From the NCBI GenBank assembly GCA_029775965.1, contig JARVJU010000008.1, positions 1 to 64,000 of the forward strand: a stretch of DNA of 64,000 nucleotides, in the 5' to 3' direction. The stretch is from Nitrososphaeria archaeon (lineage in GTDB: Archaea > Thermoproteota > Nitrososphaeria > Conexivisphaerales > DTJL01). The notes under the pieces were generated by a model. It had not been told where the DNA came from. It ran no database searches and saw only the letters and a list, made by a program, of their open reading frames with translations. Within the stretch, counting starts at the first letter, position 1. Each line of letters begins with the position of its first letter. The position numbers and the translations under genes are program-made. This document shows, one piece after another, positions 18,002-24,046 of the stretch.

Positions 18002-20902
18002 GTGATCGGGATGCAGGCAAGAGGTGCATTTGCCCTTTTTTCCAATGAAGTTCAGTCTGTACTTGGGTCGCTATCTATCAGAGAACCCACACCTCCACAG
18101 CAGGCAGCTATCCCTGCTATCTATGAAGGCCAAAATGTCCTCTTGGCTAGCCCTACAGGATCTGGAAAGACGGAGGCAGCTATTCTACCCATAATAGATA
18201 GGCTTGTGAGAGAAAAAAGGGAATCAAACTTGGGAATAAAGGCCCTTTATATCTCTCCTCTTAGAGCTCTCAATAGAGACCTCTTAGACAGACTTGAGAA
18301 GGTGTGTAAACAGCTTGACATAAAACTATCTGTTAGGCATGGAGACACATCTTTGCAGGAAAGGAGGGTTCAAAGCCTTTCACCCCCCGATATAATGATA
18401 ACTACCCCTGAAACCTTGCAGGTTCTGCTCGTATCCAGACGGATAAGAAGTTACTTGTCTACTCTGAGATGGGTTATAGTTGATGAAATTCATGAGCTTG
18501 CTTCTGATAAGCGAGGAACACAACTTTCTGTATGCTTGGAGAGGCTTGCACAGGTAAGCAAGGAGGAGTTTCAGAGAATAGGTCTTTCAGCTACCATAGG
18601 AAATCCTGAGCTGCTTGCTTCTTTTCTGGTTGGAGTTAACAGAAGCTGCAAAGTGATAAAAGTAAGCCCCTCCAAAGCATTTGAATACACTGTAAAGTAT
18701 CCGAAGCAGCAGGATGAGGATAAAAGGTATGCAGAGAAAATGCTAACTTTTCCTTCAGTAGCATCAAGAGTTAGACTCGTAGCCTCTTTAATAAAGCAGG
18801 GTCCGGCTATAGTCTTCACAAATACAAGGTCTGAGGCAGAGATCCTTGCAAGCAGGCTAAGGCTTCTGGAGCCAGATATAAGAATAGCAGTTCACCATGG
18901 GAGCCTATCCAGAGGCAGTCGGTCGAAGGCTGAAGAGAGTCTTAAGAGTGGAAATCTTAAGGCAATAGTTTCAACAAGCAGCCTAGAGATGGGGATAGAT
19001 GTAGGCATACTGAACATAATAGTGCAGTACGGCTCACCTAGGCAGGTAACAAGGCTAGTTCAAAGGGCAGGAAGAAGCGGTCACACTCTAGCTAGGGTAA
19101 GCAGATGCGTTATAGTGACGCAGGATTCAGATGATACCTTTGAAGCAGGTGTAATAAGCAGATTTGCGTTGAAAGAGATGTACGAAGATACGGAGCTTTA
19201 CAACAAACCTTATGATGTACTAGTTCAGCAGCTGGCTGGGCTTCTCATAGAAAGAAGAAGCTGGAAGATTGAAGATATTTACAGTTTGATCAAAAGGGCA
19301 TATCCCTACAAAGATCTTGAAAAGATAGAGTTCGAGAGAGTACTGGACTTCATGCAGTCAATAAGGCCAAAAATAGCAAACTATAGAGAAGGAATACTGT
19401 CAAGGCCTTTTGATAACAAAAATCTGTACGAATATTATTTTCAGAATCTTTCGATGATTCCGGAGACCAGACAATATCCTGTAGTATGCGGAGATGAGCT
19501 TGTGGGGAGCCTTGATGAAGAGTTCGTAGCCAAGGAGGGAGATATAGGCAAGAAATTCATTCTAGGCGGCAGTCCTTGGAAGATAGAGCAAGTCTTTGAA
19601 GGGAAAGTCTTCGTAAGAAGGGAGAAGGACGCTCTGGGTGCGATACCAACATGGGTTGGTGAAGAGATTCCAGTGCCAGCAGAGGTCGCCATGGAAGTTG
19701 GTAGAATAAGGGGGGAGCTTGCGAGTATGTCCATCTCTTCGCTCGGCAAAGAATTTGAAGTTAACAAAGAAAAAAGAGTTGAAACTGGAAAAATAGCTGA
19801 ATTTGCAGCTCAGTACAATATGGATAAAGATTCCATGACTCTTGCTGCAAAGGAAATCATAATGCACAAAGAATTATCAATTCCTGTGCCCAGTGATAAG
19901 TTTGTTACTGTGGAGAGAGCTAAGGATCTGGTAATAATACATACACATAGGGGATTAAGGGTGAACAGGACCGTTTCAAGGCTTCTATCTGCTATTCTTT
20001 CGATTGAAAGAAAGATAGTAGCAAGCGAAGACCCATACAGAGTAATACTGGAAGGGAAGGGGTTGACGGCTCTTGAAACTGCAGATGAGCTGAAAAATTT
20101 AGCAAGCAAGGATATAGAGGCAATACTGAAAAATTCGTCTGAGGAATCTGGGCTTTTTAGAATAAGATTCATGCATGTAGCTAGGAAGATGGGTGTACTA
20201 GAAAAGGATGCAGACCTTACAAGCAACCTGCTCGACAAGGTACTCCAAGCTTATAAAAGGACAGTTGTGTTTGATGAGGCCTGGAAGACCTTTGCCCATG
20301 AAGACATAGATATACGTGGAACAAGCAGATTCATATCTGATATATCTTCAGGCGTCATAAAGATAGAGGTTATCGAAGGGTTGAAAGAACCTACCCCAAT
20401 TGCAATGATAGGTCTTGAAGAGATGATGAGAAAAGGGGAAGTGATGGACCCAAACAGGTTAAAGAGATTAGCTATAGAATCTGCAAAGGCAAGGTCCTTG
20501 GGTAATACTATCAGCTTGGTTTGCACATCATGCTGGAAATACTCTGAAGACGTATACCCTGCGGAATTAAAAGACAAGCCAAAATGCCCGTTCTGTGCTT
20601 CTGAGAAGCTGGCATCTTTAGAAATCGATACAGAAGAGTTAGACAGCTTAATGAGAAGGATGAGAATAGGTTCAGGATTAACAGATAGGCAGAAGAAGCT
20701 TCTGAGAAAAGCCAAGAGCAGCGCCGAGATTAATCAAAGATACGGTATACTTGGTATTGTTGCTCAGAGGTTCGATATAAACAACGATGAGATTAGGCGC
20801 ATTCTAGATGCTCATGCAAGTGCAGATACATCGTTCTTTGCTGAACTAGTAGAATCTGAGAGGAAAAACATAATTAAGAGATTCATCAGGAAGGCTGACT
20901 AG
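18002..20902 (+). CDS. lhr: Lhr-like DEAD/DEAH-box helicase
   Basis: ASPTGSGKTEAA, DEIHEL, GLSATIG, VQRAGRSGH, and C-terminal Cys4 Zn ribbon (CTSCWKYS...CPFCAS). Confidence 0.85.
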   Translation: MIGMQARGAFALFSNEVQSVLGSLSIREPTPPQQAAIPAIYEGQNVLLASPTGSGKTEAAILPIIDRLVREKRESNLGIKALYISPLRALNRDLLDRLEKVCKQLDIKLSVRHGDTSLQERRVQSLSPPDIMITTPETLQVLLVSRRIRSYLSTLRWVIVDEIHELASDKRGTQLSVCLERLAQVSKEEFQRIGLSATIGNPELLASFLVGVNRSCKVIKVSPSKAFEYTVKYPKQQDEDKRYAEKMLTFPSVASRVRLVASLIKQGPAIVFTNTRSEAEILASRLRLLEPDIRIAVHHGSLSRGSRSKAEESLKSGNLKAIVSTSSLEMGIDVGILNIIVQYGSPRQVTRLVQRAGRSGHTLARVSRCVIVTQDSDDTFEAGVISRFALKEMYEDTELYNKPYDVLVQQLAGLLIERRSWKIEDIYSLIKRAYPYKDLEKIEFERVLDFMQSIRPKIANYREGILSRPFDNKNLYEYYFQNLSMIPETRQYPVVCGDELVGSLDEEFVAKEGDIGKKFILGGSPWKIEQVFEGKVFVRREKDALGAIPTWVGEEIPVPAEVAMEVGRIRGELASMSISSLGKEFEVNKEKRVETGKIAEFAAQYNMDKDSMTLAAKEIIMHKELSIPVPSDKFVTVERAKDLVIIHTHRGLRVNRTVSRLLSAILSIERKIVASEDPYRVILEGKGLTALETADELKNLASKDIEAILKNSSEESGLFRIRFMHVARKMGVLEKDADLTSNLLDKVLQAYKRTVVFDEAWKTFAHEDIDIRGTSRFISDISSGVIKIEVIEGLKEPTPIAMIGLEEMMRKGEVMDPNRLKRLAIESAKARSLGNTISLVCTSCWKYSEDVYPAELKDKPKCPFCASEKLASLEIDTEELDSLMRRMRIGSGLTDRQKKLLRKAKSSAEINQRYGILGIVAQRFDINNDEIRRILDAHASADTSFFAELVESERKNIIKRFIRKAD

Positions 20903-21437
20903 CCTCTTTACCTGCTTTGGAGAGAATAGAGGTTAGAAGCTCATCTCTATCAACTTCAACCTTGCTTCTCCAGCCTATCTTAATATAGCCTGCATCCTCC
21001 TCTATATAGCCAAGTCTTGTCAGCTTTGCTATAATCTGTTTGATCCTCCATCCTGGAAGTTTCTCAAGTAAAAGACTTTCAATCGCTTTCTTACTCTCCA
21101 TTGTGCCTTTAACATAGAGCTGCGACAGTATAATAGCAAGCGAAGCTGCCTCCTCGATTCTCATCCATCCTATACCTTCCTTTTCTCCTATCGCATCCTT
21201 GGACACAAAAACATACCTGGCTTTGTCCATGTCATCCTTCTGTTCTTCATCCGGAACTACAACAAGCTTCAGGTTGGCTTCGTCTGCCATAATAGAAACT
21301 ATCTTTAATATTTCCTGGTAGTTCTTGCCAGCTAGTCTTTTCAGCTCCCATCCTTTGCATCCAGGCTGGCTGTGCCTTTGAACAAGCAGATAAGAAAAGA
21401 GCTTTTTTGCCTTTCCTTTTAGTTCTTCTTCCTCCAA
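20886..21437 (-). CDS. Tandem winged-helix protein, candidate Nse3/MAGE (kite)-like subunit
   Basis: 183 aa; ...KLFSYLLVQRHSQPGCKGWELKR...YVFVSKDAIG...EEAASLAIILSQLYVKGTMESKKAIESLLLEKLPGWRIKQIIAKLTRLGYIEE...GYIKIGWRSKVEVDRDELL follows the MAGE domain pattern; operonic with Smc5-like and Nse4-like genes. Confidence 0.6.
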   Translation of the reverse strand: MEEEELKGKAKKLFSYLLVQRHSQPGCKGWELKRLAGKNYQEILKIVSIMADEANLKLVVVPDEEQKDDMDKARYVFVSKDAIGEKEGIGWMRIEEAASLAIILSQLYVKGTMESKKAIESLLLEKLPGWRIKQIIAKLTRLGYIEEDAGYIKIGWRSKVEVDRDELLTSILSKAGKEASQPS

Positions 21438-21447
21438 ACATTTTCAC

Positions 21448-22155
21448 CTAAAGTACCACGGCAACAGAGTTATCAGGTATGCCTGAAGATTGAACGATGA
21501 CATACTTGGATGTAGAGGGGTCGTATCTTATGCTTATAACGCCTGATGAGCAGAGGTACGATACCAGAAATGCTCTTTTCACCCTTTCTTTTCCATCATT
21601 TCCCAATACATCTTCATACAAGATGGGTCCATTAGAAACCTTTTCCTTCAGCCAAGATGCAAAGCTCTGCAACTCTTTTTCTATATCATCTGTTAAAAGT
21701 TCAAATTCTTCTAGACCTATCTGCAGCTCGGGTATGGCTTCTAGCGATTCTTTCTTCCCCCATGCTGTCAATTCTATCCAGTAATCAGCAGCCCTTTTCA
21801 ATCTTCTCGAATCTATCTGCCTCACTGAAGCAGGTAGATGTACTGAACTCATGAAAGCCCGAGATAGAGATTCAATATCGGAAGACCTTATTTTGTCCAG
21901 AAGCATGTATGGATCTACCTGTACTCTGCTGAACTGATAGCTTAGCCAATCATTCTGATGGGAGACTATCTTGCTGACAGCATTTACAGCAGCAGCATCC
22001 AGTATCAATTCGTCTCCGCTTAACTTGTCATAACCATGTCTTAACCTGCTGAGAACACCTTTTACATCTACCTCAAAGGGGTCTGCACCACTTTTCTTCA
22101 GCTCATCAGGCAGAGCTGCTATCCTTCTTCTGTATTCCTTTTCTTCTTTAGACAG
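21448..22155 (-). CDS. Candidate Nse4-like kleisin; N-terminus extended past the track start to a probable CTG
   Basis: Frame is open upstream: LSKEEKEYRRRIAALPDELKKSGADPFEVDVKGVLSRLRHGYDKLSGDELILDAAAVNAVSKIV..., resembling Nse4 N-domain; C-terminus RVKRAFLVSYLCSSGVISIRYDPSTSKYVIV resembles Nse4 C-domain; AGGTGA lies 6 nt before the CTG. Confidence 0.6.
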   Translation of the reverse strand: MSKEEKEYRRRIAALPDELKKSGADPFEVDVKGVLSRLRHGYDKLSGDELILDAAAVNAVSKIVSHQNDWLSYQFSRVQVDPYMLLDKIRSSDIESLSRAFMSSVHLPASVRQIDSRRLKRAADYWIELTAWGKKESLEAIPELQIGLEEFELLTDDIEKELQSFASWLKEKVSNGPILYEDVLGNDGKERVKRAFLVSYLCSSGVISIRYDPSTSKYVIVQSSGIPDNSVAVVL

Positions 22156-24046
22156 CTCTTTTCACCTGCTTTAACACTGATGCTGATGAAACTTTATGGA
22201 CCATAATGTAGTTAGCAGTAGAATCGTATACCTCAGGTTCCACAGGCGTTATGACCAGATACTGCGAATTATTCTGCTGTCTAAACATCTCATACACAAT
22301 CTTCATAAAAGCTTGCCTGTTCAGCCTATCCATATGCACATCCATCTCGTCCACTGCGCGGAAGGGTGATACAACAAGTCCCTGCAACGCAAGGAGAAAG
22401 GCCGCAACTGAACTGCTCCTCTCACCACCACTCTGCGTAACAGGATCAAGTTTGACAAGCTGGTCACTCCTAAAAGAGACAAAGAGCTCAAGACCGGCTT
22501 CTATTGGATTATCTTCATTAACAATCATTACCTTACCATTTCCGTTTATCATAGAGAGAACTTTTGTATATCGTTCGTTTATTTCTTTTATCAGTTCCTT
22601 TAGCTTGCTCCTCCAAACGCTGAATCTCTCTTCAACCTCTTTCATGGTTGCTCTTTTGTTTTCATCCAGCTCTTTAAGCTTAGATGACAGCTCATCTATT
22701 CTTACTCTGTAATCATTGTAGAGCTTTTCCACTTCTTCTGGAACAGTTCCAAGCTCTTTCAGCTGAAGCTCTATCAGTTTCTGCTCTGCCTGTATTTCAG
22801 CAAGCTGTCTTGGAGAATACGATATCTGGCCAAGTCGATTCGCTTCCTCTTTTACGGTCTGCAGTTCATTTTCTATCTCTGCCTTTTGCCTTTTTATACG
22901 CCTTTCCTCGCTTTTCATCTCGCCTATTCTGTATTCTAAGACAGCATTCTCCCTGCTCTTTTCGATCAACTCTTTAAGAGAATTCTCCAGCTCTCCTATC
23001 GCCTCTGAGACCATTCGATCAAGCGCAAATGTTGATTCTTCATTAATTTGCAGTTCTTTCTTTAAATCCTCTAGCTTATGATGCACTTCATCTGGTATGC
23101 TTGATCCTTTAACTGTTAAAATATTCTCTATCTTAGGTATCATACTGAGCCTTTCCCTCTTTCTTTCAGTCTCTATCATCTTTGCCAAATTGTCATTGTA
23201 CAAAGAGTGAGATGTTGCAGCCTTATTTTTCGCCTCTTCAAATCTTGATTCAAGTGATGATATATCATCTCCAAGCCTTTTCAGCTTATCATCTATTAGC
23301 GTCAAAGAGCTGTTTATTTTTGCAACCTTGCTCCACGCTTCTTCAACCCTCAGCATATCCAGGTTGCTCCGAAGTTCTTTTATCTTGAGGAGCTTTTCGT
23401 ACTCGCCCTGCCATTTTGTGAGTGCAATGTTAGCTTGCTCCAGCTCTTTCCTCCTCTCCTCTTCTTCAGACTTTATCTTTTCAAGTCTTTCCTTGGCTTC
23501 AAGGAGACTTCTTCTGTAGCTTGATAATCCTACAGCATCTTCAACCATACTCAGCTTTTCCTGAGCAGGTACAGCACTAAAAGAATCTCCAATTCCTTGA
23601 TGCATAATTATGAGCATGTTGTCAGGGTTGAGCCCAAGCTTCATCAGAGTCTCAGTAACCTCAGACTTGTTCGCTTCCTTGAAATCAATCTCAAACCAGT
23701 ATGCACCATCTTTCCTTATGTACCTTGAAAGATGGATAAGATCAGACCGAAATGGCAAAGGCCTTTTACCGTTCCTTATAGAATTGTCCAGTAGCAACGT
23801 TACTCTTGCAATCTCCTTGCCTCTCTTCACAAGGTCGCTCAATCTCCTTGACCTCTCTGTGTAGGCCTGCCCTAAGGCAACAGAAATGGCAAGGAGTATG
23901 CTTGATTTACCCGATCCGTTGGGACCAAGGATAACATTAAGACCAGGCTTAAGCGGCAGCCTGCCATAGTCATAGCTCATGAAGTTCTCAAGTATCACTT
24001 CCCTTATGAATGGCCTTCGATCTTCAGTCTGAACAGGCACGGTCAA
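22148..24046 (-). CDS. Short SMC-family ATPase, Smc5-like
   Basis: Walker A GPNGSGKSS; RLSDLVKRGK; signature QSGGERSSSVAAFLLALQ; Walker B FRAVDEMDVHMDRLNRQ; SQYLVITPVEP. 632 aa with long coiled coil. Confidence 0.8.
   Translation of the reverse strand: MTVPVQTEDRRPFIREVILENFMSYDYGRLPLKPGLNVILGPNGSGKSSILLAISVALGQAYTERSRRLSDLVKRGKEIARVTLLLDNSIRNGKRPLPFRSDLIHLSRYIRKDGAYWFEIDFKEANKSEVTETLMKLGLNPDNMLIIMHQGIGDSFSAVPAQEKLSMVEDAVGLSSYRRSLLEAKERLEKIKSEEEERRKELEQANIALTKWQGEYEKLLKIKELRSNLDMLRVEEAWSKVAKINSSLTLIDDKLKRLGDDISSLESRFEEAKNKAATSHSLYNDNLAKMIETERKRERLSMIPKIENILTVKGSSIPDEVHHKLEDLKKELQINEESTFALDRMVSEAIGELENSLKELIEKSRENAVLEYRIGEMKSEERRIKRQKAEIENELQTVKEEANRLGQISYSPRQLAEIQAEQKLIELQLKELGTVPEEVEKLYNDYRVRIDELSSKLKELDENKRATMKEVEERFSVWRSKLKELIKEINERYTKVLSMINGNGKVMIVNEDNPIEAGLELFVSFRSDQLVKLDPVTQSGGERSSSVAAFLLALQGLVVSPFRAVDEMDVHMDRLNRQAFMKIVYEMFRQQNNSQYLVITPVEPEVYDSTANYIMVHKVSSASVLKQVKRAV

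Follow-up and report, generated by a model that had tools for sequence, protein, structure and literature searches.

A conserved archaeal operon for a probable hingeless SMC-kleisin-KITE complex of the Smc5/6 clade

We describe an archaeal operon of three genes, whose products probably make up an SMC-kleisin-KITE complex of the Smc5/6 clade, which has no hinge, likely acts as an ATP-gated DNA clamp and is separate from the canonical SMC-ScpA-ScpB complex. The operon lies in the window, i.e., the whole stretch of 64,000 nucleotides of Nitrososphaeria DNA that was analysed (contig JARVJU010000008.1, positions 1 to 64,000). As claimed in a first-pass annotation of this DNA, three densely packed genes run on the minus strand from window position 24046 to 20886. 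The first gene (22148..24046, minus strand) encodes an SMC ATPase of the Smc5/6 clade with 632 residues, assigned by a Pfam SMC_N match, PDB sequence matches, a tree of SMC heads and an AF2 model. The second gene (21448..22155, minus strand) encodes an Nse4-like kleisin of approximately 235 residues, with a C-terminal winged helix at about residues 165-225, and was assigned by profile matches, by Nse4_C matches among the family members and by comparison with relatives. The third gene (20886..21437, minus strand) encodes a KITE protein of 183 residues with tandem winged helices of the Nse3/MAGE and Nse1 type, assigned by an AF2 model, Foldseek and Pfam matches among the members; its TTG start lies 10 nt past the end of the kleisin gene. 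The boundary of the kleisin gene was corrected to 21448-22155. Its reading frame was longer than in the mechanical ORF list: it does not begin at the TTG given there (22008) but reaches further upstream, to about 22155, and was open to 22161. Since the kleisin genes of two relatives (L009 and L010) begin with TTG at the corresponding site, the start is likely the CTG at 22153-22155 on the minus strand, which would overlap the SMC stop by 8 nt. Besides this probable CTG, non-ATG starts were also observed in the SMC and KITE genes.

The ATPase had been called Smc5-type on account of three motifs, QSGGERSSS, FRAVDEMDVHMDRLNRQ and SQYLVITP. All three are present in the window protein and are conserved in its family. 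Among 45 family ATPases, the signature motif was predominantly xQSGGE or xHSGGE, the pattern [FIL]R[ACV][VILM]DE.....D was matched by 42 and the pattern Q[YFT]..[IL]TP by 39. However, the attribution to Smc5 alone did not stand, because the motifs of the family are mixed, with QSGGERS and Q..ITP of the Smc5 type and DEFDVHMD of the Smc6 type; in the C-terminal head of the window ATPase, the QSGGERSSS signature is accompanied by a DEMDVHMD Walker B. Judged from the motifs, such a mixture is what is expected of a relative of both Smc5 and Smc6, and the protein is therefore better called Smc5/6-like, with one gene standing for both.

The wider sequence comparisons gave the same picture. The window ATPase matched Pfam SMC_N at 3e-32, and its top match among the PDB sequences was Smc5 (E=9e-31). 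When a profile of the 45 members was used, the ten best PDB chains were all Smc6 or Smc5 (246-200 bits), compared with 185 bits for the best canonical SMC. A balanced reciprocal test was performed with family profiles of eight members each and a canonical-SMC profile of eight members. Smc5/6 heads scored 50-72 bits higher with the family profiles than with the canonical profile, whereas Smc2 heads scored 131-155 bits lower with the family profiles. Foldseek of the SMC model returned Pyrococcus SMC first and Smc6 second, and did not separate the SMC subfamilies.

A maximum-likelihood tree was inferred from the concatenated N- and C-terminal SMC heads (335 columns). For the eukaryotes, the rows were limited to the Smc5, Smc6 and Smc2 of yeast and human that the PDB alignments contained, and the archaea sampled were all from outside Asgard. 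The search for Smc2 was seeded with a human SMC2 head sequence, and the rows in the tree are those returned by the PDB alignment. The archaeal family and the yeast and human Smc5 and Smc6 formed one clade (SH-aLRT/UFBoot 100/100), and the canonical SMCs together with Smc2 formed a separate group (96/100). A Rad50 identity of the ATPase was ruled out by the 100/100 clade and by the AU test, which rejected the grouping of the family with Rad50 (p=0.03). The grouping of Smc5/6 with canonical SMC was rejected as well (p=0.03). The family thus grouped with neither Rad50 nor canonical SMC in the tree, although the AU test did not reject its grouping with canonical SMC (p=0.10). Inside the clade, the tree nested Smc6 within the archaeal family and placed Smc5 at the family base. 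Since neither a monophyletic archaeal family (p=0.46) nor Smc5 plus Smc6 as its sister (p=0.29) was rejected, the branching inside this clade was not interpreted. The p value of 0.10 is one of the points in favour of a different explanation, namely that the operon is a divergent canonical condensin (SMC-ScpA-ScpB) and its likeness to Smc5/6 is convergence or a profile artefact; the tree of heads and the reciprocal profiles argue against it, and the kleisin, the KITE protein and the rest of the genome bear on it as well.

The window kleisin alone had no Pfam match, and Pfam and NCBIfam gave nothing convincing until the family members were scanned. In a blind search of PDB with the kleisin profile, Nse4 was the top match (5e-6), with human EID3 second (4.9e-5) and ScpA after them (0.04). 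The Nse4 and EID3 matches covered the C-terminal winged helix only, and the N-terminus looks helical in the family alignment. Pfam Nse4_C was matched by 31 of the 49 kleisin members (best 1.8e-6), and any other family by two members at most. Furthermore, a six-frame scan of 20 genomes with Nse4_C gave matches in 15 of them, and in 14 of these 15 the best match was the operon kleisin, always under the Pfam cut-off. Of the Nse4-like N- and C-terminal segments proposed earlier for the second gene, statistical support was therefore obtained for the C-terminal one only, and by its C-terminal winged helix the kleisin is classified from sequence as Nse4-type. The condensin explanation draws some support here, because the C-terminal winged-helix fold is common to the kleisin and ScpA, as seen in the E value of the ScpA chains and in the 12.5 bits that the genome's own ScpA reached with the family profile. 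Nevertheless, Nse4 was the better match, with 29 bits compared with 16 at best for ScpA.

For the window KITE protein alone, no Pfam match was obtained either, and Pfam and NCBIfam were uninformative before the members were scanned. Among 48 members, MAGE was matched by 11 and SMC_Nse1 by 10, all below the curated cut-offs, and each other family by two at most. A shallow KITE profile matched MAGE-domain Nse3 among the PDB sequences at 2.4e-5, and a deeper profile was weaker (0.013). The assignment to the Nse3/MAGE/Nse1 type was settled by the comparison of predicted folds. The AF2 model (pLDDT 91.7) consisted of two winged helices and a C-terminal helix, and the top six Foldseek matches in PDB were Nse3, MAGE or Nse1 chains (best 7dg2_C, 6e-7). 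MukE ranked seventh, and ScpB was absent from the top 50. The tandem winged helices and MAGE/Nse3 pattern ascribed to the third gene in the first-pass annotation were thus confirmed in the model, and Nse3/MAGE/Nse1 matched better than ScpB. The absence of ScpB from these matches, together with the score of the genome's own ScpB with the KITE profile (-1.1 bits), argues against a canonical condensin. None of the 48 KITE proteins contains CxxC, and the family thus lacks the Nse1 RING; the AF2 model likewise has no domain past the second winged helix.

The canonical system is encoded elsewhere in the same genome. Another contig carries a canonical SMC of 1195 residues with ScpA as the very next gene and ScpB after it (G000:C51:48691-53319, L099), and Rad50 is also encoded. 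A second Smc5/6-type SMC was not found in the genome, in which the other full-length SMC_N matches were the canonical SMC and Rad50; the operon has a single KITE gene, and the genome's ScpB sits with the canonical SMC. Therefore, the complex of the operon comes on top of the canonical one and has a kleisin and a KITE protein of its own. With canonical SMC, ScpA and ScpB present in the genome, and with the above results on the SMC heads, the kleisin and the KITE protein, the view of the operon as a divergent condensin is largely refuted, and we regard it as extremely improbable. The adjacency of SMC, ScpA and ScpB in this genome is unlike the situation in Thaumarchaeota, where smc and scpA were apart in all 14 species examined (PMC7055376). 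Another short-armed SMC was noticed in a Hadesarchaea MAG (L101:485-2809, plus strand), in which a canonical-type SMC of only 775 residues with an LSGGEKAL signature lies directly upstream of ScpA.

The operon is widespread and its gene order is conserved. A scan with the ATPase detected eight related loci in MAGs labelled Thaumarchaeota, Nitrososphaerota, Bathyarchaeota, Thermoproteota, Hadesarchaea and Thermoplasmata, and kleisin and KITE genes followed the ATPase gene wherever the contig was long enough. Forty more operon loci were sampled across families. With neighbouring open frames less than 500 nt apart, the order SMC-kleisin-KITE on the same strand was kept in 45 of the 47 loci in which all three genes were found, which is well beyond chance; the synteny that the first-pass annotation proposed to check in related archaea was thus observed. 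Of 300 Thermoproteota genomes, 128 contained the operon kleisin, almost always as a single copy (profile A3). A deeper profile (A5) was applied to 201 genomes of the window's class and detected the kleisin in 44. These include every listed genome of the window's own genus and family and the majority of its order, but none of the largest family of the class (f2). Around the Hadesarchaea MAG, 22 of the 28 genomes of the phylum encode the kleisin, compared with 2 of the 147 genomes around the Thermoplasmata MAG.

This distribution also bears on the possibility that the operon is an anti-plasmid or anti-phage system of the Wadjet, MksBEF or Lamassu type. Wadjet is likewise an SMC-kleisin-KITE operon, and the LmuB, AriA and JetC profiles of PADLOC match the ATPase; those matches are, however, generic to SMC/Rad50-type ATPases, and the kleisin and KITE proteins have no PADLOC match. 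Neither a JetD-type nuclease nor any other effector was found as a recurring neighbour of the operon, which is usually present as a single copy per genome, is distributed clade-wise and has housekeeping neighbours rather than a defence island around it. We consider a defence system of this kind very unlikely, and an identity with Wadjet or Lamassu was ruled out by the neighbourhood and PADLOC, which revealed neither a JetD nuclease nor a Jet-type kleisin or KITE.

Two genes recur near the operon. The first encodes an Lhr-type DEAD-box helicase (window 18002..20902, plus strand; Pfam DEAD, WH_Lhr and DEAD_assoc), which is convergent with the operon and whose 3' end overlaps the KITE gene by 17 nt. 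An Lhr-type helicase is convergent downstream in 24 of the 48 operon loci (including the window, L013, L072, L077 and L085), often adjacent, with the 3' ends touching or overlapping. Such recurrence suggests a functional or regulatory link between the operon and the helicase. The second encodes a protein of about 230 residues, which lies divergently upstream of the SMC gene in approximately 16 loci (alignment A7; e.g., L011:4133-4954 and L047:1043-1729, both minus strand) and beside Lhr in three. This family is well conserved (mean column identity 52%), has no Pfam, NCBIfam or PADLOC match, and has a member in the window's genome away from the operon (G000:C22:38836-39510). It is a possible extra partner of the complex. 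Nse2, Nse5 and Nse6 were found neither in the operon nor as recurring genes in its neighbourhood.

The first-pass annotation had regarded the three genes as the whole core of a eukaryote-style Smc5/6 complex. This did not hold, as the operon has one SMC and one KITE protein and lacks the RING and the hinge, the last of which had gone unnoticed. The N-terminal head of the ATPase with Walker A spans about residues 13-172. In the AF2 model (pLDDT 86), an N-terminal arm helix (175-311) and a C-terminal arm helix (319-405) are joined by the loop 312-318, forming a continuous plain hairpin whose apex loop is disordered (pLDDT approximately 47). A globular hinge was absent from this model and was not found in the sequences of the 45 members either. 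The members have 548-695 residues, about half the length of Smc5/6. The stretch containing the apex, between W238 and G406, comprises 99-232 residues (median 153) among the 45 members, and no CxxC of a zinc hook occurs in it in any of them. The apex varies in both length and sequence. A small dimerisation element may be present at this apex, which is predicted with low confidence.

This consideration leads to a further explanation, in which a complex of the Smc5/6 clade with short arms dimerises through the apex or through a partner protein, and is thus a closed ring and a true loop extruder. As far as is known, the SMC-kleisin-KITE motors that have been characterised all close into rings through a hinge. 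The SMC model is least confident at the apex, and the recurring divergent protein of about 230 residues could be an extra subunit; both would suit such a ring. However, the 45 members have neither a hinge nor a hook, and the variability of the apex in length and sequence is unlike a conserved dimer interface. We therefore judge a closed, loop-extruding ring to be unlikely.

In the hingeless clamp that we prefer, each complex would contain two identical short-armed SMC subunits, a single Nse4-like kleisin joining the head of one SMC to the neck of the other, and a KITE dimer on the middle of the kleisin. Since there is no hinge, the two SMC subunits would meet only through ATP-dependent head engagement and the kleisin/KITE bridge. 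Upon ATP binding, the heads would engage and DNA would be held atop them, capped by the kleisin and the KITE proteins as in the DNA-clamping state of Smc5/6, and hydrolysis would release it. In the published DNA-clamping state of Smc5/6, Nse3 is close to the SMC arms (PMC10191858). A local clamp is favoured over a long-range loop extruder, because the missing hinge means the absence of a constitutive SMC-SMC contact. The clamp would act locally, in repair or at recombination or replication junctions, rather than by long-step loop extrusion, and the neighbouring Lhr helicase could be its co-worker.

We further propose, tentatively and with slightly less than even confidence, that the complex is an archaeal homodimer and the sister of Smc5/6 of eukaryotes, which represents the stage prior to the duplications giving Smc5/Smc6 and Nse1/Nse3, works as an ATP-driven DNA clamp and never as a hinge-closed ring, and is kept alongside a separate canonical condensin. 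Eukaryotic Smc5 and Smc6 have hinges. The archaeal family would therefore have lost its hinge after the split from the eukaryotic line, unless the history was more complicated.

Among the SMC complexes of eukaryotes, Smc5/6 is understood least, including where its pair of kleisin and KITE came from. As a minimal and genetically compact relative, whose core could be reconstituted with three proteins, the operon could reveal the origin of Smc5/6 and which components that complex can do without. The lack of a hinge serves as a natural experiment on the need for one in SMC motors; if the complex does clamp or move DNA, a hinge would be dispensable for the basic cycle. The operon also qualifies the view of archaeal SMC complexes as generally kite-less (PMC7055376).

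The kinship of the ATPase with Smc5/6 is already published. Certain archaeal SMCs fall into one group with Smc5 and Smc6 at 100% bootstrap (Yoshinaga et al. 2022, PMC9389158), a grouping that is credited, in the description given there, to Yoshinaga and Inagaki 2021, and the window ATPase is very probably one of these proteins. The text of PMC9389158 mentions neither a kleisin nor an operon, and refers to the hinge for SMC in general and for ClsN. In our literature search, no archaeal Nse4- or Nse3-like partners and no hingeless SMC of the Smc5/6 type were found described. Part of this may be covered by van Hooff 2025, the title of which announces archaeal ancestors of SMC complexes.

Compared with known systems, the operon shares an SMC-type ATPase with Wadjet JetABCD, MukBEF and Lamassu, and a kleisin and a KITE protein as well with Wadjet and MukBEF; it differs in having no nuclease, in that its kleisin and KITE proteins are unmatched in PADLOC, and in the seventh rank of MukE. 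Like ASRP, the coalescin ClsN and Sph, the ATPase is a short archaeal SMC-like protein without a globular hinge. ASRP and ClsN, which are also short, carry a zinc hook (PMC9389158), whereas the 45 operon ATPases do not; an ASRP/coalescin identity was ruled out by the lack of CxxC and by the score with the ASRP profile (49 bits, the cut-off being 300). The archaeal canonical Smc-ScpA(-ScpB) likewise combines an SMC with a kleisin, and in some archaea with a KITE-like protein, and is found in the same genome, but its SMC is full-length and hinged and its partners belong to the ScpA and ScpB families. Jeon et al. 2020 (PMC7055376) report that the archaeal ScpAs tested do not bind ScpB, and argue that SMC complexes without a kite are the general case in archaea. 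Eukaryotic Smc5/6 has two SMCs and two KITE proteins, whereas the archaeal operon has one gene for each, and the archaeal arms are short, without hinge or RING and without Nse2, Nse5 or Nse6 in the operon. As the two SMCs, the two KITE proteins, the RING and the hinge were not found, the archaeal complex is not counted as a eukaryotic-type Smc5/6 complex. What it has in common with eukaryotic Smc5/6 is the SMC clade and its motifs (the QSGGERS and ITP of Smc5, the DEFDVxMD of Smc6), the C-terminal winged helix of an Nse4-type kleisin, and a KITE protein of the Nse3/MAGE and Nse1 type.
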